From: an uncultured Alphaproteobacteria bacterium
GTDB lineage: Bacteria; Pseudomonadota; Alphaproteobacteria; Rhizobiales; Aestuariivirgaceae
Length of the DNA: 40,033 nt
Assembly: GCA_937870685.1 (NCBI GenBank)
Contig: CALMZX010000101.1
Span: 1 to 40,033 of the forward strand
Reading direction: 5' to 3'
Part shown: in pieces, positions 22,990 to 37,334 of the stretch
How positions within the stretch are numbered: position 1 is the stretch's first letter
Layout of the letters: each line of letters starts with the position of its first letter
Made by a program: the position numbers and the translations under genes
The notes under the pieces: model-generated
Told to the model about the DNA's origin: nothing
Databases searched by the model: none
Seen by the model: the letters and a program-made list of their open reading frames with translations, nothing else

Positions 22990-23502
22990 CTACTGCCTGG
23001 CGCGCCAGAGCCTGAGTGACGAATTCTTTTCGTAGCCCAGCCTGTCGAAGCTGGCGATCTCGAGGATCTGGCCCCACGGGGCACGGAAGTAGATCCACTT
23101 GAAGCCTTCCAGCGGCCCGGCATCAACCACGTTGGGCCCATCCAGCATCTCGACACCCATGGCCGTCAGCCGTTCGGCAGATGCAAACACGTCTTCCACT
23201 TCAAAGCAGATGTGTGAGCCGCCAACCTCCGATGAGCGTTTCTGCGGCGCCTTCTTGTCTTCGCCATCATATTCGAACAGCTCGACGCTGGTGCCGTTGC
23301 CACAACGCAGGAACACAAGGTCCTTGATGCGCGCATTGGGTGCGGCGCCAAGCTTGCCCTTCATGAAGGTGTCATCGACATTGAACGGCCCGGTCCGGAA
23401 CACCTCTTCCGCCCCCAAGACCTTCTTGAAGAAGGCGATTCCCTCCTCGATGTCAGGCACGGTGATGCCGATGTGATGCATGCCAAGAACTGTCTCCGCC
23501 AT
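22990..23502 (-). CDS. VOC (glyoxalase/dioxygenase-fold) family protein
   Basis: A 170-residue vicinal-oxygen-chelate protein. It has two beta-alpha-beta-beta-beta modules: the first begins MHHIGITVPDIEEGIAFFKKVLGA (8-31) and the second GGSHICFEVEDVFASAERL (~94-112). Metal-ligand candidates are His9/10, Glu75 (SVELFEY), His97 and Glu149 (ILEIASF). The arrangement fits glyoxalase I-like or dioxygenase-like members, and exact chemistry is not predictable. GGAGG precedes the ATG by five bases. It is divergent from the winged-helix/solute-binding regulator and shares with it a perfect inverted repeat at 23519-23546, so it may be a direct target of that regulator. Confidence 0.85.
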   Translation of the reverse strand: MAETVLGMHHIGITVPDIEEGIAFFKKVLGAEEVFRTGPFNVDDTFMKGKLGAAPNARIKDLVFLRCGNGTSVELFEYDGEDKKAPQKRSSEVGGSHICFEVEDVFASAERLTAMGVEMLDGPNVVDAGPLEGFKWIYFRAPWGQILEIASFDRLGYEKNSSLRLWRARQ

Positions 23503-23518
23503 GGGTACCTCCGCATTC

Positions 23519-23546
23519 GTGTTGATTGGCCATTCGGCATCAACAC
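23519..23546. promoter_or_regulatory. Perfect 8-bp inverted repeat, candidate operator
   Basis: GTGTTGAT (23519-23526) and ATCAACAC (23539-23546) form a perfect inverted repeat with a 12-base spacer, centres 20 bp apart (two helical turns). It lies between the divergent VOC gene (start 23502) and the winged-helix regulator (start 23583), a classic place for an autoregulatory operator. Confidence 0.5.
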
Positions 23547-23582: not shown

Positions 23583-25286
23583 ATGACGGAATATGAACTT
23601 TTGCGCATCATCACATTCCTTGAGCGCATGAGAAAACCCTACGACGACCTGCTGCGGACGGCGGAACCCGACCCGCACTGGAACATCGTACTGTACCTGA
23701 TGAAGCATCACCTGAGGGGCGAGAACGTCACCATGTCGTCACTGGCTTCGGCCGCCGACATCCCCTTCGCTAGCGCCATGCGGCGCATCCACCAGCTGAT
23801 TGACCGGGGCGACATCCAGCTTCGCAAACGCGGAACGACGGGACGGTCACACTTCCTCGAGCCCAGCCGGAAGCTGGTGATCAGCTTCACCGAATATGCC
23901 TCCCGGGTGAAGGCGCTGCTTGCCGACACTTTCGGCCTGCGCAGCGGCAGCGGTGACGCCGAGGATTACTATTTTGGCGGTTCCTATTTTGCCGGGCAGA
24001 TCATTCCGCCGCTCGAAATCATGGAAAAGAAGCCGCAGGCGGGCCCCGAACTCCGCTTCCTGCTCCATGACGACAACTATTTCTCCAGCATGCGCAACAT
24101 GTGGTCGGACTTCCGCAGCAAGCTTTCCGCCCGGAAGAACTTCACCCTCATGGGCCTCCCGGAACTGCGCGCCGAAGTGTTCGCCAACGCCGCCCGCAAG
24201 GAAAGCGAGTATGACGTCATTGCCATCAACATGCCCTGGCTCGGCGAGTGTGTTGCAAATGATGTGGCCCAGCCGCTGACCCAGCACCTCAAGAGCAGCA
24301 GCATCAATCCGATGGACTTCCATCCCGCGATCTGGGCCACGGGCAGCTGGGACAAGACCCACTATGGCATACCGATCTACTGCACCATCGAGGCGCTTGC
24401 ACTTCGCAAGGACCTGTTCGAATCCCGCAAGCTCCAGCATCCCGCAAGCTTCGAGAAAGTGATCCAGTCGGCAAAGACACTTCACAATCCGAGGCGCGGC
24501 ATGCACGGGGTGGTCTGGAATGCCGCCCGCGGCATGCCCGTGTCGCATTCCTTCATGTTCTTCATGGGTGACTGCGGGAGCCCGGTGATCAGCATTCCGA
24601 CCCCCCGCCTGCACCTCGACTACAGCCGCATCAAGAACGAGGCGATGCGGCCGCAAATCCTCAGCGAGGCGGGTCGGCAGACGCTCAAATACATGCATGA
24701 ACTGCTGGCCTATTCCCCTCCGGATATTCTCTCCATCGACTGGAACCGGGCGCTCGAATATTTCATGGGTGGCCAGGCGGCCATGATCTACTGCTGGACG
24801 ATGCGGGCGGCGCGCTTTGAATATGACATCCATTCAGTGGTGAAGCGGAAAGTGTCCTACCACCCCCATCCGGCTGGGCCGGGTGGAAGCAGCCTGTCGC
24901 CCATCGGCGGTTTCCTTCTCGCCGTGCCCGCCTCCCTGCCGCCGGAACGGGCACACCTCGCGTTCGAAGCCATCTCGTGGATGGCCTCGCCCGCCGCCAT
25001 GAAGGAACATGTGAAAAACGGCATTCCGGCAGCACCACGCTTTTCCGTGAGCGCCGACCCGGAAGCCGCCGCAAGCACGCCGATCGTGAGCTTCGTGGAC
25101 CGGCTCGCGAAACAGAACCGCATCCAGAACTGGCAGCGCCCGCCGGTCAGGGAGTATCACGTCATCGAGGAAATCCTCGGCGAAGAGATCTTCGCGGCCC
25201 TCAATGGCGACGTGTCGGACGAACAGGCCCTCACCCGCAGCCAGAACCGCATCGATGCGGCCATGCGCGCCGCTGGCTACTATTGA
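23583..25286 (+). CDS. Putative regulator: winged-helix domain fused to MalE-like solute-binding domain
   Basis: A 567-residue protein with no signal peptide. Residues ~1-115 form a MarR-like winged helix: HWNIVLYLMKHHLRGENVTMSSLASAADIPFASAMRRIHQLIDRGDI, then a TTGRSHFLEPS wing. Residues ~140-560 resemble an extracellular (SBP_bac_1, MalE/UgpB-like) solute-binding protein: DVIAINMPWLGECV, YGIPIYCTIEALALRKDLF, LEYFMGGQAAMIYCW and GGFLLAVPASLPPERAHLAFEAISWM. Lack of a secretion signal plus a DNA-binding head suggests a cytoplasmic, ligand-sensing transcription factor rather than a transporter subunit. The neighbouring importer and catabolic genes are obvious target candidates. The start at 23583 is preferred; a TTG at 23526 would overlap the inverted repeat. 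Domain calls are from sequence; the regulatory role is inference. Confidence 0.8.
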   Translation: MTEYELLRIITFLERMRKPYDDLLRTAEPDPHWNIVLYLMKHHLRGENVTMSSLASAADIPFASAMRRIHQLIDRGDIQLRKRGTTGRSHFLEPSRKLVISFTEYASRVKALLADTFGLRSGSGDAEDYYFGGSYFAGQIIPPLEIMEKKPQAGPELRFLLHDDNYFSSMRNMWSDFRSKLSARKNFTLMGLPELRAEVFANAARKESEYDVIAINMPWLGECVANDVAQPLTQHLKSSSINPMDFHPAIWATGSWDKTHYGIPIYCTIEALALRKDLFESRKLQHPASFEKVIQSAKTLHNPRRGMHGVVWNAARGMPVSHSFMFFMGDCGSPVISIPTPRLHLDYSRIKNEAMRPQILSEAGRQTLKYMHELLAYSPPDILSIDWNRALEYFMGGQAAMIYCWTMRAARFEYDIHSVVKRKVSYHPHPAGPGGSSLSPIGGFLLAVPASLPPERAHLAFEAISWMASPAAMKEHVKNGIPAAPRFSVSADPEAAASTPIVSFVDRLAKQNRIQNWQRPPVREYHVIEEILGEEIFAALNGDVSDEQALTRSQNRIDAAMRAAGYY

Positions 25287-25300
25287 CCCCCTCCAACAAC

Positions 25301-26083
25301 CTAGACCAGCACCATGCCGCCATCAGACATGATCACCTGGCCGGTGATGTAATCGGAATCGGACGAGGCGAGGAACGCGGCAATGCCCGAGAGATCAACC
25401 GGCTTCGAGGGGAAGCCCAGCAGGATGCTGGACGAGAAGCTGTCGATGAACTCGCCCTTCTTCTTGATGACGCCTTTGTCGATCATGTCCTGCTCAAGGC
25501 CATCCCAGAGCGGTGTCACGACCACGCCTGGCGCGAAGGCATTGACGGTGATCTTGTGTTTGGCGAACTCCCGGGCGCCTGCCTGCGTGAGCGAGATGAC
25601 GGAGGACTTGCTGGCGCAATAGGGCGCGAACTCGGCATAGCCCTGGCGGCCCGCGATCGAGGCGGTGTTGATGATCTTGCCGCCGTGACCCTGCGCCATC
25701 ATCTGGCGCGCTGCCTCCTGCGTGCACAGCATCACGCCCCAGGCATTCACCCGCATGATGCTGTTGAAGTTCTTCTCGTCCACTTCCATGAACGGCACGG
25801 GCTTGTTGAAGCCGGCGTTGTTGAACATCACGTCCAGCTTGCCGAATGCCTCTACGGTCTTACGGATTGCGGCCTGCACCTGGCTGCGCTCTGCCACATC
25901 CACCTTCACCGCAAGGGCGCGGTGGCCCTTGCCCTTCAGGTCAGCGGCGACGGCTTCCGCCTTCTCGCCGTTCGTGTCGGCGATGACGATCGAGGCACCA
26001 TCGGACGCGAGCCGCTGTGCAATGCCCTCGCCCAGGCCCTGGGCCCCGCCGGTGATCATGACAACACGGTCTTTCAGTCTCAT
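25301..26083 (-). CDS. Short-chain dehydrogenase/reductase of the catabolic operon
   Basis: A 260-residue classical SDR. It shows ITGGAQGLGEG (10-20) for NAD(P) binding, FNNAGF (87-92), catalytic Ser in NTASIAG (~139-145), and YCASK (Tyr154/Lys158 region). The C-terminal YITGQVIMSDGGMVLV is typical of acetoin/diol or sugar-alcohol dehydrogenase-like SDRs. It lies 23 bp after the fused ATPase-permease gene and is the last gene of the minus-strand operon. The convergent regulator gene ends 14 bp away with no terminator visible. Oxidation of a hydroxyl on the imported substrate is the likely role. Confidence 0.88.
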   Translation of the reverse strand: MRLKDRVVMITGGAQGLGEGIAQRLASDGASIVIADTNGEKAEAVAADLKGKGHRALAVKVDVAERSQVQAAIRKTVEAFGKLDVMFNNAGFNKPVPFMEVDEKNFNSIMRVNAWGVMLCTQEAARQMMAQGHGGKIINTASIAGRQGYAEFAPYCASKSSVISLTQAGAREFAKHKITVNAFAPGVVVTPLWDGLEQDMIDKGVIKKKGEFIDSFSSSILLGFPSKPVDLSGIAAFLASSDSDYITGQVIMSDGGMVLV

Positions 26084-26106: not shown

Positions 26107-28611
26107 TTACGCTTCCGACCCGGCACGCCTTCGGACTGTCGAGTAGATCAAGGCCGCCACCACGATGAGCGATCCCTGGAAAATGTACTGATAGGTCTGG
26201 CTGAGACCCAGGAATGTGACGGCGCTCAGCACTTCGGTGAGAAGGACCGCGCCCAGCACGGTACCGATGAAGCTGCCCCTGCCGCCCGAAAGAGCGGTGC
26301 CGCCAAGAACGACGGCGGTGATGCTGGACAGCGTGTAGTTGATGCCCTGGCGCGGGTCGCCCACACCGATCTGCGTCATCAGCATGATGGCGCCCAGAGC
26401 CGTGAGCAGCGAACAGGCCACATATCCCGCGATGAAGGTACGGTCGACGCGCATGCCCATGCGGCGCGACGACTCTTCGTCCGACCCGACAGCGCGCAGG
26501 CGCCAGCCTGCCCGCATCTTGCGCAATACATATTCAAGCGCCACCGCTACGGCGGCCAGCACGATGAAGGCGACGGGAACAGGCCCGAGTTGCCAGTTGA
26601 TCCAGTCTGTCACCGGGAAACTGATGTAGCCGTCGGGCGCGTTGCGAAGCAGGAAGCTGGCACCCTGGATCGCAATGTACATGGCGAGTGTTGCGGCAAT
26701 GGGCGTGAAGTTGGCAAAGCGGATGAGCACGCCATTGATGGTTCCGACGACAAGCGCACCCAGAAACATCAGCACAAAGCCGGTCAGCACCATGGCCGCC
26801 GACTTGTCGTCATTGATGAAGAAGGATGCAACGACCACAAGGAACCCGGCGAGCGGACCAACCGACAGGTCAATGCCGCCCATGAGCAGCGCCACCGTCT
26901 GGCCAAGCGCAATGAAGCCCAGCGCCGTTGCCAGCAGCAGGATGTTATAGACGTTGTATGTCGACAGGAAGTTGTCGTTGTGGAAATTGACGTAGAGGCC
27001 AAGCAGCGCGGTGACGACAGCCAGCGCGACTGCGGGAGCATTGTCGGTTTGCAGGAAATGCCTCAGCCCACTCATGGCGCTGCCGGCCGTGGCACCAAAG
27101 ACACTGTCGCCCACGTGCGATACCGCGCCAACGGCGGCGGCGATGATCTTCTCTTCCGTGACATCGGCCCCGGTGAGGGTTGCAACCGCGCGCCCGCGCG
27201 ACATGACAATAACCTTGTCGCACAGGCCCTCAAGCTCGGCCGCATCCGATGAATTGACAATCACGGCCGTACCGGCGTTCGAGACATCGCGCAGGATGCG
27301 GTAGATTTCTGCCCGCGCGCCGACGTCCACGCCCTGCGTCGGTTCATCGGCGACGATGAGAACAGGCTCGGACAGGAGGGCGCGCGACATCACGATCTTC
27401 TGCTGGTTGCCGCCCGACAGCGACAGGATGGGCGCCTCAATGCTGGGAGCCTTGACGGCAAGGGACTCGAAGGTCCGGCCGACAAGTTCCAATTCCTTCT
27501 TGTGGCTCACCAGGCCGTTCCGGGCAAATTTTTCGAGTGCGCCGAAGGCGGCGTTCTCGCGCACCGTGAGGCCGCTGGCCAGTCCTTCGGTGTGGCGGTC
27601 CGATGGCATGTAGGCGGACTTGCCGAGCAGTTCCTTCAGGCTCACGGGCGCACCGTGCACCGCGACCTCACCACTTGCCGATAGCAGACCGGCAAGGGCG
27701 CGCATGAGATGCGACTGGCCGTTTCCGGCAACGCCCGCAATTCCAAGGATCTGGCCGCGCGGCACGTCAAAGGACACATCCTTGAAGCCGCGGCCGCTGA
27801 AACCCGACACGGAGAAGCTGATGTCCTTGCTGGTGTCCGCCGCCTTCGGGGGGAAGGTGGAGCCAAGTGTGCGGCCCACGATCAGGGCGAGCAATTCGGA
27901 GTCGCTGATGTCCTTGACCAGCGATGAACCGCGCCAGCGACCATCGCGCAACACCGTCACGCGGTGGGCAATCTGGCGGATCTCGGCAAGGCGGTGGGTG
28001 ATGTAGATGACCGATGTGCCGGCCTTGACGATGTCACGGACACGGCCAAAGAGCATGTCTGTGGCCTCCTGGTCGAGAGAGGCCGTGGGTTCGTCGAGGA
28101 TCAGCAGCTTTGGCTTGACGGCGAGCGCCTTGGCCAGTTCGAGCAGATGCTTCTGCGCGACAGTCAGCGCTTCCGCCCGCAGGCGCAGCGGGACATGCAG
28201 GCCAACCGCATCCAGCATCTCCTTGGCCACAACCATTGCCGGACGTCCGGCAAAAACCGATTCTGGAAGTGCCACGCGCAGGTTCTCCAGCACGGAGAGG
28301 TCTTCGAGAATGGCGGGATGCTGGAAGGAAATGGCGATGCCGAGATTGGCGGAGAGTTCCGGGCTCATGTCCGGAATGCGCGTACCCTCAAACCAGATTT
28401 CGCCGAGTGTTGGCTGGAGCGTACCCGAAATGATGTTCATCAGGGTGGACTTGCCGGCCCCGTTTTCACCGAGAATGGCGTGGACTTCGCCGGGATGGAA
28501 CTCGACCGACACTTCGCGCAGCGCCAGAACGCCGGAGAATGCCTTTGAAATGTTGGCAAGCCGGATTGTTGGCGTGCCCGTGGCATCCGCGCCTCTGGCT
28601 TCACTGCCCAT
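26107..28611 (-). CDS. Fused sugar-type ABC ATPase (two NBDs) and permease (RbsA-RbsC-like)
   Basis: A single ~834-residue chain joins an RbsA-like double ATPase to an RbsC-like permease. NBD1 has Walker A GENGAGKST, a divergent signature (LTVAQKHLLELAKAL) and Walker B LLILDEPTASLD. NBD2 has the usual degenerate Walker A (GVAGNGQSH) and a canonical LSGGNQQKIVMSRAL and LIVADEPTQGVD. From about residue 515 the chain becomes a membrane protein with about eight helices and RbsC hallmarks (ALGQTVALLMGGIDLSVGPLAGF, GINYTLSSITAVVLGGTALSGGRGS). The ATG at 28611 has AAGAAGGCGG upstream; a GTG at 28641 is the alternative. A second, separate permease lies upstream in the operon, so the transporter could be a heterodimeric channel. 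The substrate is unknown. Confidence 0.9.
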   Translation of the reverse strand: MGSEARGADATGTPTIRLANISKAFSGVLALREVSVEFHPGEVHAILGENGAGKSTLMNIISGTLQPTLGEIWFEGTRIPDMSPELSANLGIAISFQHPAILEDLSVLENLRVALPESVFAGRPAMVVAKEMLDAVGLHVPLRLRAEALTVAQKHLLELAKALAVKPKLLILDEPTASLDQEATDMLFGRVRDIVKAGTSVIYITHRLAEIRQIAHRVTVLRDGRWRGSSLVKDISDSELLALIVGRTLGSTFPPKAADTSKDISFSVSGFSGRGFKDVSFDVPRGQILGIAGVAGNGQSHLMRALAGLLSASGEVAVHGAPVSLKELLGKSAYMPSDRHTEGLASGLTVRENAAFGALEKFARNGLVSHKKELELVGRTFESLAVKAPSIEAPILSLSGGNQQKIVMSRALLSEPVLIVADEPTQGVDVGARAEIYRILRDVSNAGTAVIVNSSDAAELEGLCDKVIVMSRGRAVATLTGADVTEEKIIAAAVGAVSHVGDSVFGATAGSAMSGLRHFLQTDNAPAVALAVVTALLGLYVNFHNDNFLSTYNVYNILLLATALGFIALGQTVALLMGGIDLSVGPLAGFLVVVASFFINDDKSAAMVLTGFVLMFLGALVVGTINGVLIRFANFTPIAATLAMYIAIQGASFLLRNAPDGYISFPVTDWINWQLGPVPVAFIVLAAVAVALEYVLRKMRAGWRLRAVGSDEESSRRMGMRVDRTFIAGYVACSLLTALGAIMLMTQIGVGDPRQGINYTLSSITAVVLGGTALSGGRGSFIGTVLGAVLLTEVLSAVTFLGLSQTYQYIFQGSLIVVAALIYSTVRRRAGSEA

Positions 28612-28668
28612 GTCCGCCTTCTTTGACTTGCTCGCCGCCACGTCGGTTTGTCCGTGTCCAGAATGACT

Positions 28669-28694
28669 GCTCCGGAGGGAAGACCCTCCGGAGC
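28669..28694 (-). other. Perfect 11-bp intergenic stem-loop between binding protein and transporter genes
   Basis: GCTCCGGAGGG (28669-28679) and CCCTCCGGAGC (28684-28694) form a perfect 11-bp stem around an AAGA loop (plus-strand reading). On the transcribed minus strand the stem is followed by AGTCATTCTGG, not a U-run. It is therefore more likely an mRNA-stabilising or attenuating hairpin protecting the binding-protein message than a full terminator. Confidence 0.6.
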
Positions 28695-28712
28695 CTGTTT
28701 GTGTAACCGGGC

Positions 28713-29777
28713 TTACTGGCCGCCCACAGCCTTGGCCTGGTCTTCGTCAGGGAGTTCCGAAGACAGGTAGATGGCGCCGGGCAGGTCCTTGCGGCAGGTC
28801 ACCGGGTTCGGCTTGCCGGACACCGAGTCTTCATACATCGGCGCCTGGAAGATGTTTTCAGCCGGAGGCGTTCCGCCCGTGACGGCAGCAACCGCATGCA
28901 TGACCGCGAGGCGGACGTTGTCGTTGCCTGTTGCAACCGTGAAGAGCTTGAAGTCGGGATTGGTGGCCTTCATCTCTTCCCAGAAGCAGGCAAGCGAGTT
29001 GCCGTCAGAGGTCGCGAGCGCGGGGATCGACTTGCCCTGCTTGTTGAACAGCGGAAGCGCGCCCACCAGCGACGGGCCGAAGTCGGAGATGATCACGTCG
29101 ATCTTCTCGTTCTTGGCGATTTCGGCAGTGAGGACCTTCTGCGTCAGCGCCGGATCCCAGTTCGTCACCGCGAAGGGTTCGGGGTTCACGAACTTGTATT
29201 CTGGGCCAAGCACGTTGCGCAGGCCCTTCAACTCGTCCAGACCCTGGCTGTTGCCGGCAGGGCCGGAGAGGAAGAGCAGGTTGCCGCCATTCGGCAGGAT
29301 GCCCTTGATCCACTTGCCCCAGTTCTCGCCGTCGTTCACGAACGAAGCGCCGATGAACTTGGTGTAGTTCTCGCCTTCCTTGCCGCCGACATCAACGCGG
29401 TACGGCACGATTACCTTGCCCGCCTTGAAGACGGAGGTGATGGCAGGGAGAACGGCGGGGCCCGCGTCACCAAAGACAACGAGCGCATCAATGCCCTTGG
29501 CTGCCATGGACTTGATGTCCGAGATGGACTTCTGCGTGTCGCCCTGTCCGTCGGCGTATTCATACTTGGTGATGCTGGGGCACAGCGAGGCGGTCTGCTT
29601 GCCCGAGGCGGTGGTCACCTGGCGCCAGCTGTTGCCGCCATAGCCGTCGAGGAGCGCCAGCGACGCTTCCTTGGGGCCGCACCACGAGGGGTTTTCGGCA
29701 TTGGCGATGCCTGAACTTCCAAGTGCGAGCATTGCCGTGGCTGCAGCAAGGGCAAGTTTCGTTTTCAGAGACTTCAT
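28713..29777 (-). CDS. Sugar-type periplasmic binding protein (type 1 fold)
   Basis: A 354-residue periplasmic binding protein of the RbsB-like family. A Sec signal peptide (MKSLKTKLALAAATAMLALG) probably ends at ANA/EN near residue 27. The mature protein has the two-lobe type 1 pattern: SITKYEYADGQGDTQKSISDIKSMAAKGIDALVVFGDAG (lobe 1), GNLLFLSGPAGNSQGLDELKGL and ALATSDGNSLACFWEEM (lobe 2). Cysteines at about 33, 67, 253 and 331 could form disulfides in the periplasm, which is unusual for sugar-binding proteins. Its ATG overlaps the upstream permease stop (ATGA), and a stable stem-loop follows the gene. Ligand unknown. Confidence 0.9.
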   Translation of the reverse strand: MKSLKTKLALAAATAMLALGSSGIANAENPSWCGPKEASLALLDGYGGNSWRQVTTASGKQTASLCPSITKYEYADGQGDTQKSISDIKSMAAKGIDALVVFGDAGPAVLPAITSVFKAGKVIVPYRVDVGGKEGENYTKFIGASFVNDGENWGKWIKGILPNGGNLLFLSGPAGNSQGLDELKGLRNVLGPEYKFVNPEPFAVTNWDPALTQKVLTAEIAKNEKIDVIISDFGPSLVGALPLFNKQGKSIPALATSDGNSLACFWEEMKATNPDFKLFTVATGNDNVRLAVMHAVAAVTGGTPPAENIFQAPMYEDSVSGKPNPVTCRKDLPGAIYLSSELPDEDQAKAVGGQ

Positions 29778-30784
29778 GGTTTTTCCTCCACTTTCTTTGG
29801 TTCAGTCGCTTTTCCTTGGCCTACCGTCCAACGGAACGAGTAAACCCCGATGCCAAAACCCAGAGCCAGGGCCTGGATGATGGTTTGGGCCGAATACGGC
29901 ACTCCGACTGCGAGTGCGAATTGGCTCAATTGGTTCAGGAAGAATGCGGCGATGACGGTCGAGACGGGAAAGCCGCGCCCGCCCAGCAGTGATGTGCCCC
30001 CGAGGACAACGACAGCCACCGACGGCAAAAGCAGCGAGTCACCCTGGAAGGCCGTGGGTTCGCGCGTGATGCCGGCGATGAGAACGCCCGCGAGACAATA
30101 GAGGAGCTGGGCGTAGACATAGGCCATGAACTGGTGGCGGCGGACGGCCAGCCCCGCAGCCCGCGCCGCCAACGGATTGGCACCGACCGCCTCGAAGCGG
30201 CGGCCCACGACAGTTTTCTTCAGGACAAAGGTGACGACGCCCAGCGCCAGCAGGGCAAACCAGACCGAGTTGGGCAGGCCCAGGGTTTCACCGCCGGCGA
30301 TGGTTGCAAGAAGGTCAGTGGTGATGGAGGGCGTGCCGCCGGAGACGGCGAAGACACCGCCGTAGAGCAGGGCATTGACGCCAATCGTTGCGATGATGGC
30401 GTTGAGGCGAAAGACGCTGACGAGCAGGCCGTTGAGAATACCTGCCGCGAGTGCAAAGCAGACGGCGATCAGCACCGCCGCGAGCAAGAGTGCGTTGTCC
30501 TGCTGCGGGTAGTGGGTGGCCTGCACCACCGCAAGCGAAACCGCCCCCGGCAATGACAGGTCAAAACCGCCCTGCTGCACAACCAGCAACTGTCCGAGAC
30601 CCACGATGGCGATGATGGCCGCAAACGGCAGGCTGCCCGACAGCGCGCCCATGGACACGCTGGAGGGCGCGAAGATGAAGCACACCGCCAGCAGCACGAC
30701 GGTGGACGAGAGCACCGTCACAAAGCTGCGCGCCAGCGGCATCTGCTGGAGCAGTCCCGGCTGGATGGCGGCAGCGTTGCTCAT
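29774..30784 (-). CDS. ABC transporter permease, RbsC-like
   Basis: A 336-residue inner-membrane permease of the branched sugar-importer type. Around eight to nine hydrophobic helices are visible. Hallmarks are LLVVQQGGFDLSLPGAVSLAVV (~65-86), FRLNAIIATIGVNALLYGGVFAVSGG (~130-156), AVGANPLAARAAGLAVRRHQFMAYVYAQ (~200-227) and LLPSVAVVVLGGTSLLGGRG (~258-277). Stop and start overlaps join it to the binding protein (ATGA) and to the PRISE gene upstream (one base). Together with the permease half of the fused protein it probably forms a heterodimer. Confidence 0.92.
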   Translation of the reverse strand: MSNAAAIQPGLLQQMPLARSFVTVLSSTVVLLAVCFIFAPSSVSMGALSGSLPFAAIIAIVGLGQLLVVQQGGFDLSLPGAVSLAVVQATHYPQQDNALLLAAVLIAVCFALAAGILNGLLVSVFRLNAIIATIGVNALLYGGVFAVSGGTPSITTDLLATIAGGETLGLPNSVWFALLALGVVTFVLKKTVVGRRFEAVGANPLAARAAGLAVRRHQFMAYVYAQLLYCLAGVLIAGITREPTAFQGDSLLLPSVAVVVLGGTSLLGGRGFPVSTVIAAFFLNQLSQFALAVGVPYSAQTIIQALALGFGIGVYSFRWTVGQGKATEPKKVEEKP

Positions 30785-31845
30785 CAGGGCAGAACCTTGG
30801 CCGCGCGCAGGCGGTCAAAGGCATCGGTGAACGAGCGGACCGAATTCTGGTAGGCGGTGAACCCCTTGTCGCGGCACTTGGTCATGTCGGTGAAATTCTC
30901 GAAGACGCGGCCGAGGTCGGCATCGGAGTGCCACCAAGAGGCCACGGCGCTGAGCGGGTTCTTCTGCAGCCCGTGCCGGGCCACAATCGCGTCCCAGACC
31001 GGCTCCATGCCGGCCATCTGCTTTTCGAGCGGCTGGGCATGACCGGGGTAGTCTGCCGCGGTAACGCCCAGATGTTCCGCAAGCTTTGGCCACATCCAGC
31101 TCCAGCGGAAGACTTCGCCATTGACGATGTTGAAGGCTTCATTGCGGGCCGCGGGCTTGGTGGCAGCCCAGAGGAGCTGCTTGGCGATGATGCGGCCATC
31201 GGTGATGTCCACGACCGCCTCATACTGCTGGGGCGAACCGGGAAAGACAAAAGGCCTGCCGGTTTCCTTGCAGATCGCCGCGTAGGCACCAAGGGTGGCC
31301 GCCATGTTCATCTGGTTGCCGACGGTGTAGCCGATCAGTGTGTGCGGGCGGTGGACCGACCATGTGAAGCCCTGCTTCTCGGCGGCCGCATAAAGTTCGT
31401 CTTCCTGATCATAATAGAAGTTCTGGTAGGGAAGCCTCGGCTGCTCCTCGCGGAAGGGCGTGACCATCTTCGACTTGGCATAGGCTTCGAAGGGGCCCAT
31501 GTAGTGCTTGAGGCCTGTCACCAGCGCCGCGTGCCTGATCTTCTTGCCTTCCATCGCGGACAGGAGGTTGCGCACCATGCCGGCATTGACGCGGCAGTTT
31601 TCCGCTTCTGTTGCCTGGCGCAGCCAGGTGGTGATGAACACATCGGTCGGTTTCACCCGCTTCAATGCGGATCTCACCGCCTCTTCGTCGGTGAGGTCAA
31701 CAGCAATGTGCTTCACGCCCTTCGGCAGGTCATGCTTGTGGCGCGAGATGCCCGAGACCGTCCATCCCTTGGTGCCCAGAAGGTGCTCGGCGAGATGGCG
31801 GCCGATGATTCCCGATACACCGGCGATCAAGGCGTGGCGTGGCAT
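30784..31845 (-). CDS. PRISE-family NAD(P)H reductase (progesterone 5-beta-reductase/iridoid synthase-like)
   Basis: A 353-residue extended SDR of the PRISE family, enone reductases best known from plants (progesterone 5-beta-reductase, iridoid synthase). The dinucleotide motif is GVSGIIGRHLAEHL (9-22). The two PRISE catalytic features are present: Lys113 in TGLKHYMGPF and the Tyr of NFYYDQED (144/145). Further PRISE-like sequence is WSVHRPHTLIGYTVGNQMNMAATLGAYAAICK (~164-195). Both catalytic residues are intact, so NAD(P)H-dependent reduction of an activated C=C is plausible. It overlaps both neighbours by one base and is embedded in a transport/dehydrogenase operon. The natural substrate is unknown. 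A plain sugar epimerase annotation would be the lazy alternative. Confidence 0.85.
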   Translation of the reverse strand: MPRHALIAGVSGIIGRHLAEHLLGTKGWTVSGISRHKHDLPKGVKHIAVDLTDEEAVRSALKRVKPTDVFITTWLRQATEAENCRVNAGMVRNLLSAMEGKKIRHAALVTGLKHYMGPFEAYAKSKMVTPFREEQPRLPYQNFYYDQEDELYAAAEKQGFTWSVHRPHTLIGYTVGNQMNMAATLGAYAAICKETGRPFVFPGSPQQYEAVVDITDGRIIAKQLLWAATKPAARNEAFNIVNGEVFRWSWMWPKLAEHLGVTAADYPGHAQPLEKQMAGMEPVWDAIVARHGLQKNPLSAVASWWHSDADLGRVFENFTDMTKCRDKGFTAYQNSVRSFTDAFDRLRAAKVLP

Positions 31846-32831
31846 CAGTTCAATCCTTCGGTTGACAGGGTGATCTTGATGCAGGCCTTGGGATCCTGCC
31901 CCAGTTCAAACCCCTTGACGGCATCGTTGAGAGAGAACTTGTGCGTCTGGATCGGTGACAGGTCGATGCCCGTGCGCTCCAGGAAGCGGATGGCGGCGGG
32001 CCAGACACCGGGCGACCCGATGCAGCCTCTCACCGTGAGGTTCTTCAACTGGATGAGCCCGAGGACCGATGGGATCTTCCTGCCGATGTTGATGCCGACC
32101 ATGGAGATGCGGCCATCATGGGCGACATAGTCGAAGACCGCTGCCAGGGAGGCATCGTGTCCGGCGCATTCCACGACGAGGTCGGCGCCCTTTCCGCCCG
32201 TCAGTTCGGCAATCTGCTCGGCGCCGCGGTCCGATGGGTCAATGGCCTCGGCCCCCAGCTTCTTGGCAACCTCGCGCCGCTTCGGGATCGGATCGGCCAC
32301 GATCACGCGCGCGCCCATGCCAAGTGCCGCTGCCGCCGAAACGAGGCCAATGGTGCCGCCACCAGACACGACAACCGTCTCAGAGGCGTTGGTTCCGCCG
32401 GAGCGAAGCACCGCGTAGTAGCCGCAGGTGAACGGTTCGATCAGCGAGCCGCGCATGTCATCAACCGAATCCGGCAGCTTGTGCAGCCAGTCCGGGTTGA
32501 CATTGAAATACTGCCGGTCGGCACCATCCATGGAGAAACCGAAATGATGCAGGCGCTCCGGTGTACGCACCACGCATTCACCGACCACGCGGTCACCCAC
32601 CTTGAAATTCTTCACCGCCTTGCCGACTTCGACGATTTCGCCGCACCATTCATGGCCCGGTATGACGGGGTAGGAGATCGGGATGATGTAGCGGCCTGCC
32701 AGAAGTTCATAGTCCGAGTGGCAGATGCCGATGGTGCGGGTGCGCACCAGCACTTCCGTGTCATTGATCGTGGGCATCGGCACATCGGCGATCACGGGCT
32801 TGTTCGGCGTTTCAAAAATCAGCGCTTTCAT
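31845..32831 (-). CDS. Zinc-type medium-chain alcohol dehydrogenase lacking the structural zinc lobe
   Basis: A 328-residue medium-chain dehydrogenase/reductase. Catalytic zinc ligands are present: Cys in GICHSDYELLAG (~37), the HE pair in PGHEW (~60) and Glu in IEPFTCG (~138). The Rossmann motif is VVSGGGTIGLVSAAAALG (~155-172). The four-cysteine structural zinc loop is absent and is replaced by ECVVRTPERLHHFGFSMDG. ATG 32831 has AGGAG nine bases upstream; a TTG at 32840 touches that site and is rejected. It sits between the Gfo/Idh gene (12 bp) and the PRISE gene (one-base overlap). Likely an NAD(P)-dependent oxidation of a polyol-like intermediate. Confidence 0.88.
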   Translation of the reverse strand: MKALIFETPNKPVIADVPMPTINDTEVLVRTRTIGICHSDYELLAGRYIIPISYPVIPGHEWCGEIVEVGKAVKNFKVGDRVVGECVVRTPERLHHFGFSMDGADRQYFNVNPDWLHKLPDSVDDMRGSLIEPFTCGYYAVLRSGGTNASETVVVSGGGTIGLVSAAAALGMGARVIVADPIPKRREVAKKLGAEAIDPSDRGAEQIAELTGGKGADLVVECAGHDASLAAVFDYVAHDGRISMVGINIGRKIPSVLGLIQLKNLTVRGCIGSPGVWPAAIRFLERTGIDLSPIQTHKFSLNDAVKGFELGQDPKACIKITLSTEGLN

Positions 32832-32843
32832 GGGGAGCAACTC

Positions 32844-33854
32844 CTAGAGTTTCACAACCGCGCCATCCCTGGCGGCGGACTTGATGATGGCTTCGAGAAT
32901 GGAGATATTGGTGACGAGGTCCTTGCCGCTGATCGGATAGGCGGCCTTGCGGCGCACGGCATGGGCAAAGGCCACGAGATTGTCCTTCACCGGTTCGGCA
33001 GGCGGAACCTCAGTGACGGTGATCGGGCCTCCCGCCATGGCGGAGGTGACAACCCAGCCTGCGGGCGATTCCACGTGGGCCTTGTCGCGGATTTCGATCC
33101 AGCCCTTGGAGCCGAAAACGGCAAAGCGCGAAATGAAGGGCATGGCGAGGGAGGCCGAAACATAGGCCGTACCGCCCTTCTTGAAGCGGATGTGGACACT
33201 CATGGTGTCGCCCTGCGGAATCTTGGACGAGAGTTTCTCGCAGGAGACACGCAGGTCGCGGGCCTCGCCGAGAAGCGCCGCGGCAAGGTCCGTCAGGTGG
33301 ATGCCCGTCGCGGTCATGCCGCCCACGGGTGCTTCCTTCTGGTTCAGGCGCCAGTTCTTCTTGTCGAGCGTGGTGAACTTGTCGTGGCTGAAGTTGCCTT
33401 CCACCTGCTGGATGCGGCCCAGTTCGCCGTTCCGTGCCATGGCAAGCATCCTTGCCACGGGCGGCTCCCAGCGGCGTTCGTGGCCCATGCCCAGCACCAG
33501 CCTGTTGCGGGCGCAGGCCTTGACGGCGGCTTCGGCACCCTTGCGGGTGAGCGCCAGCGGTTTCTCGCAGAAAATGTGTTTCTTCGCCGCCACTGCAAGG
33601 CGGATCTGCTCGGCATGCAGCGAATGAGGTGTGGCGAGGATCACTGCCTCAACACCGGGGTGGGCGAGCGCCTCACGCATGGTGGTGTAGTGCGCAAAGC
33701 CGTTTGTCTTGGCGAATTCCGCGCCCGCCGGGTTGGGTTCGGCGGCGCAGACGATGCGGATGTCATCGCCCGCCTTCTGCAGCACGGCGGTCATCTTCTT
33801 GCCCCACCAGCCCAGGCCGATCATCGCGACATTCACAGGACCTGACTTTGCCAT
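32844..33854 (-). CDS. Gfo/Idh/MocA-family oxidoreductase
   Basis: A 336-residue NAD(P)-dependent oxidoreductase of the glucose-fructose/inositol dehydrogenase family. The Rossmann motif is AMIGLGWWGKKM (~10-21). The family catalytic-site segment HIFCEKPLALT is near residues 93-103 with the conserved Lys. A second conserved region, GGMTATGIHLTDLAAALLG, is near 178-196 with the candidate catalytic His. The start at 33854 is shared with the upstream dehydrogenase stop (TGATG). Such enzymes act on cyclic polyols, aldoses or pseudosugars, so their presence here points to a cyclic or sugar-like substrate. Confidence 0.9.
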   Translation of the reverse strand: MAKSGPVNVAMIGLGWWGKKMTAVLQKAGDDIRIVCAAEPNPAGAEFAKTNGFAHYTTMREALAHPGVEAVILATPHSLHAEQIRLAVAAKKHIFCEKPLALTRKGAEAAVKACARNRLVLGMGHERRWEPPVARMLAMARNGELGRIQQVEGNFSHDKFTTLDKKNWRLNQKEAPVGGMTATGIHLTDLAAALLGEARDLRVSCEKLSSKIPQGDTMSVHIRFKKGGTAYVSASLAMPFISRFAVFGSKGWIEIRDKAHVESPAGWVVTSAMAGGPITVTEVPPAEPVKDNLVAFAHAVRRKAAYPISGKDLVTNISILEAIIKSAARDGAVVKL

Positions 33855-34921
33855 CACACGGTCACCAGGATTTTCATGTGGTTGACCGACTTGTCGAGCA
33901 GCGCGTCGAAGCCCTGCTTCACCACATGGTCGGCGGAGATGTTGGCCGTCACAATCTTCTCGATGGGGAAGATGCCGGCCTCGACCATGCGGATGATGCG
34001 CGGCCAGCACTGCACGGGATAACACCAGGTGGCTTCCAGGGTGATGTCCTTCAGCGCCCAGAGCATGGCATCAATGGCGGCGGGCTTCATGTGAAGGCCG
34101 GTCTGCACGACCTTGCCCTGGCGGCGCACTGCGGCCGCGCAGGTGTTCAGGCTTGCTTCCAGCCCGACGCATTCAATGGCGACATCGACGCCGACACCTT
34201 CTTCGGTCATGGAGCGGATCACCCCGGCGACGTTCTCCGCCGCGGGATCGATGACAATCGCGGAGGGCACCAATTCCTTCGCCATCTTGCGGCGGAATGC
34301 GTTGGGTTCAGAAACAAAAATCTGGCCCGCGCCCGCGGCCTTCACGGCCAGCAGGGTGAGCGCGCCAATCGGCCCGACGCCGGAGACAAGCACAGTCGAG
34401 CCGGACTGCACGCCGCCACGGTCTGCGGCGTAGACTGCAACCGCGGCAGGCTCGATCATGGCGCCCTGCAGGTCGCTGACACCCTTCGGCAGCACCGCCA
34501 CGTTGTAGTCATTGACGACGGCGTATTCGCTCATGCCGCCCCAGGCCCAGCTCAGGCCGACACAACCCATTTTTTCGCTGAGGTGATAGAGGCCGCGGCG
34601 GCCATAGTAGTCGTCGCGTGGCGAAATCAGCGGCTGGATGGAGACCCGGTCGCCGACCTTGACGTTCTCCACGGCAGCGCCCGTGTCGGCGACGATGGCG
34701 CTGAACTCATGACCCAGGATCTGCGGATTGGTTGCTCCGGTGTAGACATGTGGCGTCTGCGGCGTGACGATGGGGCCCGCGATGTACTCGTGCAGGTCAG
34801 TGCCGCAGATGCCGGTGACCAGCGGCTTGATCAGCACATCGTTGGGGCCGAGCCTTTTTGATGGTGCAGGCACATCCTCGACGCGGATGTCCTTTGCAGC
34901 GTGAAACCGCACGGCCTTCAT
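33854..34921 (-). CDS. Zinc-type alcohol dehydrogenase, (R,R)-butanediol/polyol dehydrogenase-like, altered structural-zinc loop
   Basis: A 355-residue medium-chain dehydrogenase most like 2,3-butanediol and sorbitol dehydrogenases. Catalytic zinc ligands: Cys39 in GICGTDLHEYIAGP, His in LGHEFS (~70) and Glu in IEPAAVA (~158). NAD site: LVSGVGPIGALTLLAVKAAGAG (~174-195). The loop that normally holds four structural-zinc cysteines is replaced by PLISPRDDYYGRRGLYHLSEKMGC, so only one cysteine remains. GAGGAAAA precedes the ATG at a good distance. It is the first long gene of the minus-strand operon and overlaps the end of a 38-codon reading frame (ATGA). Substrate inferred only at class level. 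Confidence 0.9.
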   Translation of the reverse strand: MKAVRFHAAKDIRVEDVPAPSKRLGPNDVLIKPLVTGICGTDLHEYIAGPIVTPQTPHVYTGATNPQILGHEFSAIVADTGAAVENVKVGDRVSIQPLISPRDDYYGRRGLYHLSEKMGCVGLSWAWGGMSEYAVVNDYNVAVLPKGVSDLQGAMIEPAAVAVYAADRGGVQSGSTVLVSGVGPIGALTLLAVKAAGAGQIFVSEPNAFRRKMAKELVPSAIVIDPAAENVAGVIRSMTEEGVGVDVAIECVGLEASLNTCAAAVRRQGKVVQTGLHMKPAAIDAMLWALKDITLEATWCYPVQCWPRIIRMVEAGIFPIEKIVTANISADHVVKQGFDALLDKSVNHMKILVTV

Positions 34922-35034
34922 GATGATTTTTCCTCGTTTGCATGGGAGACGTCCGCCTGGGCGACGCCAACGGTGTGGTTGCCGGGCAGCCCGATACCGG
35001 CAGACGCAACTCTTTCCTGCACATTGCCAGTCAC
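34918..35034 (-). CDS. Possible 38-residue leader peptide coupled to the first dehydrogenase
   Basis: A GTG at 35034 preceded six bases earlier by a perfect Shine-Dalgarno stretch AGGGAGGAAG (35050-35041) opens a 38-codon frame. Its TGA overlaps the ATG of the dehydrogenase at 34921 (ATGA). The peptide (VTGNVQERVASAGIGLPGNH and so on, ending NEEKSS) has no signal or motif that I recognise. Strong ribosome binding site plus coupling suggests it is translated. It may be a leader peptide, a microprotein, or the remnant of a larger gene. The frame is open further upstream to 35103, but no comparable ribosome binding site is there. Confidence 0.45.
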   Translation of the reverse strand: MTGNVQERVASAGIGLPGNHTVGVAQADVSHANEEKSS

Positions 35035-35351
35035 GTTGCGCTTCCTCCCTTTGGTGAACGCAGCAGCACCACAGACCCGCTCAGGCGAGCTCTTCGTTGC
35101 CAATCATCCTAACCAAGCGGGTTCAGGAGCAACGCTATAAAATTCTCATTTTGATAATTTTTGATCGGAGGCCGCGCGGGCTTTGCAGGCACACTGGCTC
35201 CAACAAGAAAACTGAACCCAGTCCCGGGAGGACATCTTGCAATCTGCCGAAGGCTTGTGTGAGTTGTGCCTCACTGCATCTGCAACCACCCGGGCCGCGA
35301 GGTTTGATCCACGCGGCTTTTCCCAGACGACACAAGATCTTCGGTGAGTGC
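34922..35351. promoter_or_regulatory. Divergent intergenic control region between the two catabolic operons
   Basis: This 430-bp gap separates the minus-strand dehydrogenase/transport operon from the plus-strand E1-E2 operon, so it must hold both promoters. Its minus-side half contains the candidate 38-codon frame. Its centre has an AT-rich patch (35131-35165) unlike the GC-rich surroundings, with a -10-like TATAAA at 35136-35141 on the plus strand and a TTTTGAT direct repeat. I could not place confident -35/-10 pairs for either direction. GGTGAG just before the ATG at 35352 is the probable ribosome binding site of the E1 alpha gene. Confidence 0.5.
35149..35165 (+). repeat. TTTTGAT direct repeat with 10-bp period, candidate regulator site
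   Basis: TTTTGAT occurs at 35149-35155 and again at 35159-35165, one helical turn apart, inside the AT-rich patch of the divergent control region. The half-site shares TTGAT with the inverted repeat next to the winged-helix/solute-binding regulator (23519-23546). A common regulator is possible but unproven. Confidence 0.35.
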
Positions 35352-36362
35352 ATGGCTTCACTTCAATCCAAAGAGAACGACGACATCGGCCACGAGACGC
35401 GCCGCGAACTCTACCGGCTGCAGATCGAGATCCGCGACGCTGAGAAGCGCGCCTATGACCTGTTCCTGCAGAACCTGATCAAGGGCACGAGCCATCTCTC
35501 GCTCGGGCAGGAAGCCGTGGCCGCAGGTTTTGGCGTTGCCATGAAGACGGGCGACAAGACCTTCTGCACCTATCGCGGCCACGCCCACACGCTGGCGCGC
35601 GGTGCCCCGGTCGAGGGTGTGCTCGGGGAATTGATGTTGCGCGACAACGGCTTGATGCGCGGCAAGGGTGGCTCCATGCATCTCACCTCCGCCGAACACG
35701 GCGTCATGGGCTCCTACGCCATTATCGGCGCCCATCTCTGCATCGCCTGCGGTTCCGCCTGGCGGGCGCAGTATCTCGGTGAAAAGGATGTGACCGTCTG
35801 CTTCTTTGGCGATGGCACCACCAACATCGGCGCCTTCCACGAAGCCCTCAATTTCGCCGCCATCTGGAAACTGCCTGTTGTGTTCGTCTGCGAGAACAAC
35901 CTCTACATGGAATATACGCCGATCGGCGACGTGACGGCGGTGCAGCATCCGGCCGCCGACCGCGCCGCGGCCTATGGCCTGCCGCGTATCCTGATCGACG
36001 GCAACGATGCAGACGCCGTGTTCCGTACCGCCCGCGAGGCCATCGCCAAGGCGCGTGACGGAGGCGGACCGTCACTGGTCGAATGCCTGACCTACCGCCA
36101 TTCCGGCCATTCCCGTGCCGACCCCGGCAAGTACCGGCCGCCCGGCGAGCTGGAGCGCTGGCTGGAGCGCGACCCGATCAAGATCTACAGGCAGCGGCTT
36201 CAGGAGTTCGGTTTCACACAGGAACAGATCGACGCCGTTGACGCGGAAAGCAAACGCAAGGTGGAAGAGGCAACCACGGCCTGCAAGGCAGCGCCGCAGG
36301 CACCGCCTGAATTGCTGACGGCAGATGTCTATGCCGATGGAGGCTGGGCATGGCGGAACTGA
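35352..36362 (+). CDS. TPP-dependent dehydrogenase E1 alpha subunit (acetoin/pyruvate dehydrogenase-like)
   Basis: A 336-residue E1 alpha subunit of a 2-oxo-acid/acetoin dehydrogenase complex. It has TYRGHAHTLARGAPVEGVLGELMLR near 77-100, the RGKGGSMHL segment (~107-115), and the thiamine diphosphate/Mg motif GDGTTNIGAFHEALNFAA...CENN starting at residue 153. Length and the GKGGSMH type fit AcoA-like and PDHA-like proteins. The start at 35352 follows GGTGAG. A longer in-frame opening upstream has no ribosome binding site and odd composition. It overlaps the E1 beta gene by 13 bases. Acetoin versus a branched or modified 2-oxo acid as substrate cannot be decided from sequence, but the butanediol-dehydrogenase-like gene opposite favours an acetoin-like compound. 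Confidence 0.9.
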   Translation: MASLQSKENDDIGHETRRELYRLQIEIRDAEKRAYDLFLQNLIKGTSHLSLGQEAVAAGFGVAMKTGDKTFCTYRGHAHTLARGAPVEGVLGELMLRDNGLMRGKGGSMHLTSAEHGVMGSYAIIGAHLCIACGSAWRAQYLGEKDVTVCFFGDGTTNIGAFHEALNFAAIWKLPVVFVCENNLYMEYTPIGDVTAVQHPAADRAAAYGLPRILIDGNDADAVFRTAREAIAKARDGGGPSLVECLTYRHSGHSRADPGKYRPPGELERWLERDPIKIYRQRLQEFGFTQEQIDAVDAESKRKVEEATTACKAAPQAPPELLTADVYADGGWAWRN

Positions 36363-37330
36363 GCTACCGTGACGCGGTGATCCGGGCGATCTCGCAGGAA
36401 ATGCGCCGCGACAACAACGTCGTGTTCCTCGGTGAGGACGTGGCCAAGGCCGGCGGCGTGTTCAAGGCAACCGTCGGGCTCTACGAGGAGTTTGGACCGC
36501 TGCGCGTGCGCGACACGCCGATCTCCGAGCAGGCCATCCTTGGTGCTGCCATGGGTGCGGCCATGACCGGGCTTCGCCCCATCGCCGAACTGATGTTTTC
36601 GGATTTTGCGGCGGTGTGCTTCGACTTCATCGCCAACGAAATGCCGAAGCTCGCCTACATGACCAACGGCCAGCTCACCTGTCCGCTCGTCATCCGCACC
36701 GGCAATGGCGCAGGCGTGCGCTTCGGCGCGCAGCATTCGCAATCGATTGAAAACTGGACAATGATGATCCCCGGCCTCAAGGTCGTTGCACCATCGTCGC
36801 CCGTCGACGTGATCGGACTTTTTGCAGCGGCGGTGCGCGACAACAACCCCGTGATCTTCCATGAACACAAGGCCCTTTATGCCACAAAGGGTGAGGTTCC
36901 TGACGGCGAGATCGTGGACACGCTGGGCACGGCAAAGATCCTGCGGCCCGGCAAGGACTGCACCATCCTGGCGCTGGCGCTGATGGTGCCGCGTGCCATG
37001 GAAGCGGCGGACATCCTGGCCCGCGAGCATGGCATCGACGCGGAGGTCATCGACGTGCGGTCGCTCGTCCCGCTTGATACCCAGACGATTCTCGGTTCCG
37101 TGGCGAGAACGGGCCGGCTGTTCACGGTGGAAGAAAACCCGCGTCTGCTGGGCTGGGGTGCGGAGATCGCCTCCATCGTGGCGGACGAAGCCTTCTGGGA
37201 CCTGGACGGGCCCATCGTGCGCATCACCACTCCGCACATTCCGCTGCCTGCTGCCGATCATCTTGAAGACCTTGCACTGCCCAACGCCGCACGCATCGTC
37301 GACAGGATCTCGCGCGTGATGAACGGGTAG
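36350..37330 (+). CDS. TPP-dependent dehydrogenase E1 beta subunit (acetoin/pyruvate dehydrogenase-like)
   Basis: A 326-residue E1 beta (transketolase-fold) subunit. It has SYRDAVIRAISQEMRRDNNVVFLGEDV (~4-30), which holds the conserved active-site Glu of GED, then FGPLRVRDTPISEQAILGAAMGAAMTGLRPI, RTGNGAGVRFGAQHSQS (~119-135) and the C-terminal transketolase domain with IDVRSLVPLDTQTIL (~237-251). GGAGG lies about six bases before the ATG, and the start overlaps the E1 alpha gene, ensuring balanced alpha2beta2 assembly. It acts with E1 alpha and the E2 protein encoded next. Confidence 0.91.
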   Translation: MAELSYRDAVIRAISQEMRRDNNVVFLGEDVAKAGGVFKATVGLYEEFGPLRVRDTPISEQAILGAAMGAAMTGLRPIAELMFSDFAAVCFDFIANEMPKLAYMTNGQLTCPLVIRTGNGAGVRFGAQHSQSIENWTMMIPGLKVVAPSSPVDVIGLFAAAVRDNNPVIFHEHKALYATKGEVPDGEIVDTLGTAKILRPGKDCTILALALMVPRAMEAADILAREHGIDAEVIDVRSLVPLDTQTILGSVARTGRLFTVEENPRLLGWGAEIASIVADEAFWDLDGPIVRITTPHIPLPAADHLEDLALPNAARIVDRISRVMNG

Positions 37331-37334
37331 CGCC

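Follow-up and report, generated by a model that had tools for sequence, protein, structure and literature searches.

A conserved alphaproteobacterial fusion of a MarR-like winged helix with a MalE-type solute-binding domain, a probable cytoplasmic regulator

The locus and its gene neighbourhood

The features found in the window, i.e., in the whole stretch of 40,033 nucleotides analysed, are collected in Table 1. At their centre lies the gene of a protein that joins a winged helix to a MalE-type solute-binding domain, hereafter called the regulator. Two start codons are available to it, ATG 23583 and TTG 23526, and the alignments of close relatives begin at the residue encoded by the ATG.

Table 1. 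Genes, protein domains and DNA elements of the regulator locus.
Feature	Position	Strand	Details
VOC/glyoxalase gene	22990..23502	-	divergent to regulator
Perfect inverted repeat	23519..23546	.	GTGTTGAT-n12-ATCAACAC; 8-bp arms, 12-nt spacer
Regulator gene	23583..25286	+	567 aa, ATG start; frame open up to TTG 23526
MarR-like winged-helix domain, residues 1-118	23583..23936	+	AlphaFold, Pfam on relatives, Foldseek
Predicted recognition helix, residues 62-74	23766..23804	+	R67 invariant (81-row alignment)
Linker, residues 119-157	23937..24053	+	conserved YYFGGSYF (129-136); pLDDT <50 at 120-126 and 146-153
MalE-type solute-binding (SBP_bac_1) sensor, residues 158-567	24054..25283	+	Pfam, PDB sequence match, Foldseek
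SDR dehydrogenase	25301..26083	-	between regulator and importer
Linked operon	26107..34921	-	ADH2, Gfo/Idh/MocA, Zn-ADH, PRISE-type SDR, permease, type I SBP, ATPase-permease
Fused ATPase-permease	26107-28641	-	within linked operon
Type I SBP gene	28713-29777	-	within linked operon
Best candidate operator	35143..35157	.	TTCTCATTTTGATAA; between ADH2 (start 34921, -) and E1 alpha (ATG 35352, +)
2-oxoacid dehydrogenase-type E1 alpha, E1 beta, E2	35352..38579	+	divergent promoter region common with candidate operator

A sugar-type importer operon had been predicted next to the regulator, and Pfam bears this out: the importer is of the RbsA/RbsC type, with its own type I solute-binding protein (SBP). 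The fused gene of the operon encodes an RbsA-type double ATPase and an RbsC-type permease in one protein of 844 amino acids, and a second, separate permease is encoded at 29774-30784. Among NCBIfam models, inositol-type dehydrogenases ranked first for the Gfo/Idh protein and for one of the alcohol dehydrogenases (ADHs), and third for the other ADH. All of these scores are far below the curated cut-offs, and a polyol or cyclitol is for that reason only our best guess for the substrate of the pathway.

The neighbourhood is conserved. Homologues of the RbsA/C-type importer or of the type I SBP were found in 63 of 74 regulator loci, and in Rhodobacterales, Devosia and others much of the window's gene set is found next to the regulator. 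Near it, L033 and L035-L040 have homologues of E1 beta and E2; other linked genes encode 2-oxoacid dehydrogenase E1/E2 and an M24 peptidase-like protein. Moreover, an importer of the MalE type stands beside the regulator in L099, L101-L103 and L183 (Aminobacter), L101 and L102 having RbsA/C-type genes as well.

Intradiol dioxygenase and maleylacetate reductase-type genes, mostly together with polyol-type dehydrogenases, were observed in L179, L180, L183, L064 and L074, hinting at a sugar or cyclitol route via an aromatic intermediate. The contig of L064 is titled Terriglobia and bears an operon type otherwise seen in Devosia and Rhodobacterales records; it is possibly misbinned.

The fused protein and its relatives

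Structure prediction returned the winged helix that had been proposed for the first ~115 residues. When the N-terminal 120 residues were modelled alone with AlphaFold, the pLDDT was 94.1 and the model showed a winged helix whose first and last helices are long (helices at residues 3-23, 31-44, 51-57, 62-74 and 96-117, strands at 78-82 and 90-94). Pfam gave no match within the first 115 residues of the window protein, and no MarR model; among the 81 aligned rows, MarR_2 was matched in 29 and MarR in 16 (E≤1), with best values of 2.5e-6 and 1.3e-6, respectively. In addition, the PDB chains at the top of the Foldseek list for the head (best 50 of 1459 matches with E≤10) were for the most part MarR proteins, joined by a few AspA centromere-binding chains. 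Among the matches listed, the best E was 1.3e-3, none reached 1e-3, and TM scores were about 0.4-0.57 by query length, so that the modelled resemblance of the head to MarR appears weak and lies at the level of the fold. A profile of the head domain matched SlyA/MarR chains by sequence (4mnu, E 1.8e-4; 1lj9, E 1.8e-3). A pentatricopeptide repeat protein, in the top row of that profile search, was taken as a chance match, since no stretch of it passes alone. A homologous winged helix was also observed as the output domain of receiver-domain response regulators from other Alphaproteobacteria, the receiver being recognised by Pfam in L164 and L168 and by reading of the sequence in L165, L166 and L171.

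For the window protein as a whole, Pfam (E≤1) reported SBP_bac_1 (residues 206-474, E 1.1e-17) and SBP_bac_8 only, and no NCBIfam model was matched at E≤0.1. By sequence, 5iai (residues 147-554, E 2e-33), a sugar ABC solute-binding protein from Agrobacterium radiobacter (Arad_9887), is the nearest chain of known structure. The same chain was the top Foldseek match of the whole AlphaFold model (pLDDT 86.5), with a TM score of 0.90 by target length, followed by sugar-binding proteins; overall, the solved structures nearest to the sensor are SBPs for sugars and polyols. The sensor is strongly conserved over the 81-row alignment, with P218, W219, T268, W312 and G442-G443 invariant. The MalE-type solute-binding fold and its union with a winged helix in one protein, both put forward in the original prediction, are thereby confirmed by AlphaFold, Foldseek and Pfam (for the winged helix, Pfam on relatives).

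The lack of a signal peptide likewise holds. None of the 81 relatives has a stretch of 11 residues near its start with a mean hydropathy of at least 2.0, i.e., a clear secretion signal, by a crude threshold (passed by just 21 of the 56 type I SBPs in the neighbourhoods) and on uncurated ORF starts. The highest values among the relatives were 1.99 and 1.95, and the window protein reached 1.08. SBP_bac_1 was matched in all 81 rows (80 of them distinct, L009 being identical to L044; mostly Alphaproteobacteria), so that both the fusion and the missing signal are conserved across the alignment, as had been expected.

Within the order, 30 near-full-length matches (33-100% identity) were found in 28 of 297 genomes, the genome of the window included. 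Scanning genome contigs yielded 54 loci, and in 52 of them the match ran from residue 1 to at least residue 540; L034 is cut by the end of its contig, and the match in L084 starts at residue 13. With the own genome set aside, full-length fusions occur in 7 of 385 class-level genomes and in 5 of 398 phylum-level genomes, these counts being lower bounds, as the best candidates per genome were scored. Among the phylum-level genomes with a fusion, G784 belongs to another class, and a Polaromonas record (L045) is among the fusion loci. Full-length fusions with 28-30% identity were also seen in three genomes of only ~1.4 Mb (L156, L157 and L158, from G630, G326 and G553).

In the tree of sensor domains, all 45 sampled regulators and one exported SBP, from L099, form one clade (98/97), and 33 other SBPs fall outside it; an SBP of the own genome (L002) sits on a very long, unplaced branch. 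In the 81-row tree, the exported SBP L099:8830-10176, present twice as rows L022 and L099, nests among the regulator sensors. The regulators as a single clade were not rejected in a 43-row test (p-AU 0.32), and we claim neither a single nor a multiple origin of the fusion.

Candidate operators

Two DNA targets had been proposed for the protein, with different outcomes. The perfect inverted repeat upstream of the regulator is present, once, in the window, but as an operator it is unconserved. The top-ranking inverted repeats upstream of 34 relatives do not include it, and when its arms were searched in all loci (≤3 mismatches, spacer 10-14), a perfect copy was found only in the window, with no other match in a regulator promoter; two relatives have TTTCTCAATTTGAGAAA in common upstream instead. 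The repeat was therefore rejected, and is probably not an operator. The second target, the region 34922-35351, contains the best candidate operator, which has one mismatch to the motif of the window clade, TTCTCA-n3-TGAGAA.

In the own genome (3.29 Mb, 92% complete), just two places match a looser pattern, TTMTCANNNTGAKAA. The second copy, TTATCAAAATGATAA at L106:3428-3442 (contig C10), has an RbsC/RbsB/RbsA-type importer on one side and an SDR on the other; nearby lies a GntR-FCD gene, which might own that site. In 1.38 Mb of loci, TTCTCA-n3-TGAGAA occurs at 28 places with at most two mismatches of 12, a total not above simple expectation, and thus the argument for this motif rests on position and on the perfect copies. 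Perfect copies were found in seven distinct loci (L034, L036-L039, L041 and L086), four of them closely related Mesorhizobium, and all lie 47-384 bp upstream of the regulator. In L086, of the same genus as the window, the perfect copy (L086:10383) falls in the promoter common to the VOC/glyoxalase gene and the regulator, and further TTCTCA-type copies were found in front of E1 alpha or of the type I SBP gene. The regulator's own promoter in the window is without the motif, the only good copy there being that at 35143, and L087, also of the same genus, has no copy at ≤2 mismatches.

In other clades, ATCCA-n3-TGGAT or ATCCG-n3-CGGAT is found at the equivalent promoters of regulator, importer and enzyme operons, and sites with mismatches lie beside MalE-type importers (L099:8706 and L102:9715). 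The half-site shifts together with the recognition helix: the window clade, with TTCTCA, has F62 and S64, whereas the other rows shown, with ATCCA/G, have Y, W, R or H at position 62 and T (once A) at position 64.

Sites were counted in a discovery set of 75 loci with five half-sites and at most two mismatches of 14, half-sites overlapping such that one place may count more than once. Of the 75 loci, 40 had promoter-zone sites, a number that dropped to 0-2 in each of 20 shuffled controls, and 35 had no in-zone site at ≤2 mismatches. In total, 58 sites lay in-zone and 52 outside, with the zone making up 6% of the bases. As the motifs had been chosen on these same loci, fresh loci were tested. 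The first held-out set comprised 12 loci (L152-L163) with 13 regulator genes. Exact ATCCA-n3-TGGAT was found within 400 bp upstream in 5 of the 12, with two copies outside, and ATCCA ranked first of 1024 half-sites (runner-up, three loci). With the five half-sites, in-zone sites were present in 3 of the 12 loci at ≤2 mismatches (4 places in-zone, 6 outside), where 25 of 30 shuffles gave none and one reached 5 loci, and in 7 of the 12 at ≤3 mismatches (13 places in-zone, 43 outside), where 18 of 30 shuffles gave 0-1 loci and four gave 5-6.

The second held-out set consisted of 12 of the 32 plasmid matches, L172 and L182 being close kin. TCCA palindromes were found in five of these loci and TCCG palindromes in three others (8/12 in total), and the remaining four had neither. 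TCCA ranked first among 256 four-letter half-sites (5 loci), with TCCG tied for second with CCCT (3 each); among 1024 half-sites, ATCCA was first and ATCCG second. As judged from these sequence counts, the putative operator motif of ATCC type passed two held-out tests. Sites of the TTCTCA type occurred in none of the held-out loci, all of which come from clades other than that of the window.

Moreover, pairs of sites exactly 21 bp apart were found in 12 of 99 loci, many of which are related, so that sites are partly common by ancestry. No other in-zone spacing occurred more than three times, and no 21-bp pair was found outside promoter zones.

In the initial enumeration, the dyads GATCA-n12 and ATTTC-n11 ranked first and second, above ATCCA-n3. 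They were set aside as coding conservation, because 19 of 20 and 17 of 18 of their in-zone copies, respectively, sit wholly within the frame of the gene upstream of the regulator.

Proposed mode of action, alternatives and known systems

We consider it highly probable that the protein is a cytoplasmic one-component transcription factor, in which a winged-helix dimer binds palindromes and a MalE-type domain senses a ligand, and that it controls the neighbouring operons, likely by repression. Domain make-up, the lack of a detectable export signal, the conserved fusion and neighbourhood and the enrichment of operator-like sites were computed; dimerisation, DNA binding, the ligand and the repressive sign are what we infer. 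The MarR-like winged helix would most likely dimerise via its long first and last helices, and the dimer would bind palindromes of 13-17 bp with a 3-nt spacer; the two copies placed 21 bp apart in a dozen relatives suggest two dimers on one face of the DNA. Inside the cell, the MalE-type domain would close on a sugar, polyol or cyclitol, which may be the substrate or an early intermediate of the neighbouring pathway, and this closure would alter DNA binding through the conserved linker. The targets would be the adjacent operons for the importer, the dehydrogenases and the 2-oxoacid dehydrogenase, to which many relatives would add the regulator's own gene. Control is most likely exerted by repression that the ligand relieves. 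The sign proposed rests on the likeness to MarR and on TATAAAAT at 35136-35143, which touches the candidate operator, because a promoter and terminator scan of both intergenic regions returned nothing, with no sigma-70 match at 35143.

The same protein could instead work as an activator, like SgrR on sgrS, its ligand-bound form recruiting RNA polymerase at divergent promoters; this is possible, and we regard it as doubtful. A repressor is more likely, given that the winged helix resembles that of MarR proteins, most of which repress, and that TATAAAAT touches the operator, even though the scan found nothing there. Nevertheless, many sites do fall between divergent genes. Published work on the nearest known architecture also favours activation: SgrR induces sgrS (PMC4021124), besides repressing itself, and deletion of the putative DsvR box lowers the activity of the zapC promoter (PMC13060122).

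It is unlikely that the winged helix binds DNA while the sensor has lost ligand binding and senses a partner protein or the state of the importer instead. The regulator sensors do form a branch of their own, apart from nearly all exported SBPs sampled, but their strong conservation, including the invariant residues, and the closest solved structures, those of sugar and polyol SBPs, argue against such a loss. Slightly less probable still is a role of the palindromes as promoter elements or as sites of a different regulator, with the fused protein acting elsewhere. The site missing from the window regulator's own promoter and the GntR-FCD gene near the second genomic copy would agree with another owner; however, such sites are found again and again next to the regulator, across many genera of two classes and alongside importers of several types, and a change in the regulator's recognition helix is accompanied by a change in the half-site. 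Finally, an exported SBP with a mis-called N-terminus, as the databases have it (of the 32 plasmid matches, 5 are unannotated and the other 27 all carry the name of a solute-binding or periplasmic component), is highly improbable given the winged helix conserved over the alignment, its pLDDT of 94 and the export signal that was not found.

In rhizobia, roseobacters and further Alphaproteobacteria, entries named "extracellular solute-binding protein", as the annotated plasmid copies are, seem to encode transcription factors; transporter inventories therefore miscount them, and their regulons are missed.

Among known systems, SgrR is the nearest working likeness. Its family models combine a C-terminal SBP_bac_5 domain, which is of the oligopeptide type, with SgrR_N. 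The window protein shares with this family an N-terminal HTH and a class II SBP fold without export signal, but SBP_bac_5 and SgrR_N are absent from it (Pfam E≤1), its sensor being SBP_bac_1 and its head MarR-like; neither domain was found among 25 of the 31 Pfam families listed for the 81 rows. It would thus work like SgrR without being SgrR. In LysR-type regulators, too, a winged helix precedes a type 2 periplasmic-binding fold, but the co-inducer domain that serves them as sensor is shorter and belongs to a different family, and HTH_1 and LysR_substrate had no match in the window protein (Pfam E≤1). LacI/GalR proteins couple a LacI-type HTH to a type 1 Peripla_BP sugar sensor, neither of which was matched at the same threshold, whereas the sensor here is MalE-type. 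MarR proteins sense via the winged-helix dimer itself; they have the DNA-binding fold and the long flanking helices in common with the head, but among the chains listed they are ~130-180 residues long and have no SBP domain, in contrast to the 567 residues and SBP domain of the window protein. The polyol and sugar ABC SBPs of the MalE/UgpB type (5iai, 4rya, 1eu8) are alike in the fold of the sensor, but they are exported transporter subunits, whereas the window protein lacks an export signal and has a DNA-binding domain attached. The five response regulators described above have a homologous DNA-binding domain, with a receiver rather than a solute-binding domain as input. Altogether, the window protein is not a member of the SgrR, LysR, LacI or classical MarR families.

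The fusion had been presented as a way of turning a binding protein into a sensor that differs from that of LacI-type regulators. The principle is already known: according to published work, SgrR and DsvR (E. coli, Vibrio) are transcription factors with an N-terminal HTH and a C-terminal solute-binding domain involved in sugar-related control (PMC13060122, PMC4021124), and DsvR carries SBP_bac5 (PMC13060122). What does look new is the MalE-type SBP_bac_1 sensor on a MarR-like head, together with the family and its operator code. In the literature covered, no description of a MarR-like helix fused to SBP_bac_1 was recognised, which is weak evidence, subscription journals being mostly uncovered; the regulator family is probably undescribed.

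On balance, we are inclined to see in these proteins an undescribed regulator family in which a whole MalE-type protein serves as the intracellular sensor of the inducer, while the same solute is taken up mostly via an importer with an unrelated type I SBP, with a readable operator code of 3-nt-spaced palindromes, often paired at 21 bp, and with a sensor fold that in L099 may have returned to the periplasm. If so, uptake and sensing of one solute would use two unrelated binding folds, and the family would stand beside SgrR as a sugar-type case of cytoplasmic sensing by a class II binding protein. The operator motif and the conserved neighbours make it directly testable, with sugar or polyol biosensors as a possible use, and it offers a system for testing how a Venus-flytrap sensor is coupled to a MarR-like head.

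The exported protein of L099 (L099:8830-10176, in G205) is encoded beside the regulator L099:6955-8697. It is a MalE-type SBP with a clear signal peptide and 33% identity to the sensor, and may have arisen from a sensor that went back to the periplasm or may be the nearest living representative of the ancestral type; an operator-like palindrome precedes its gene.
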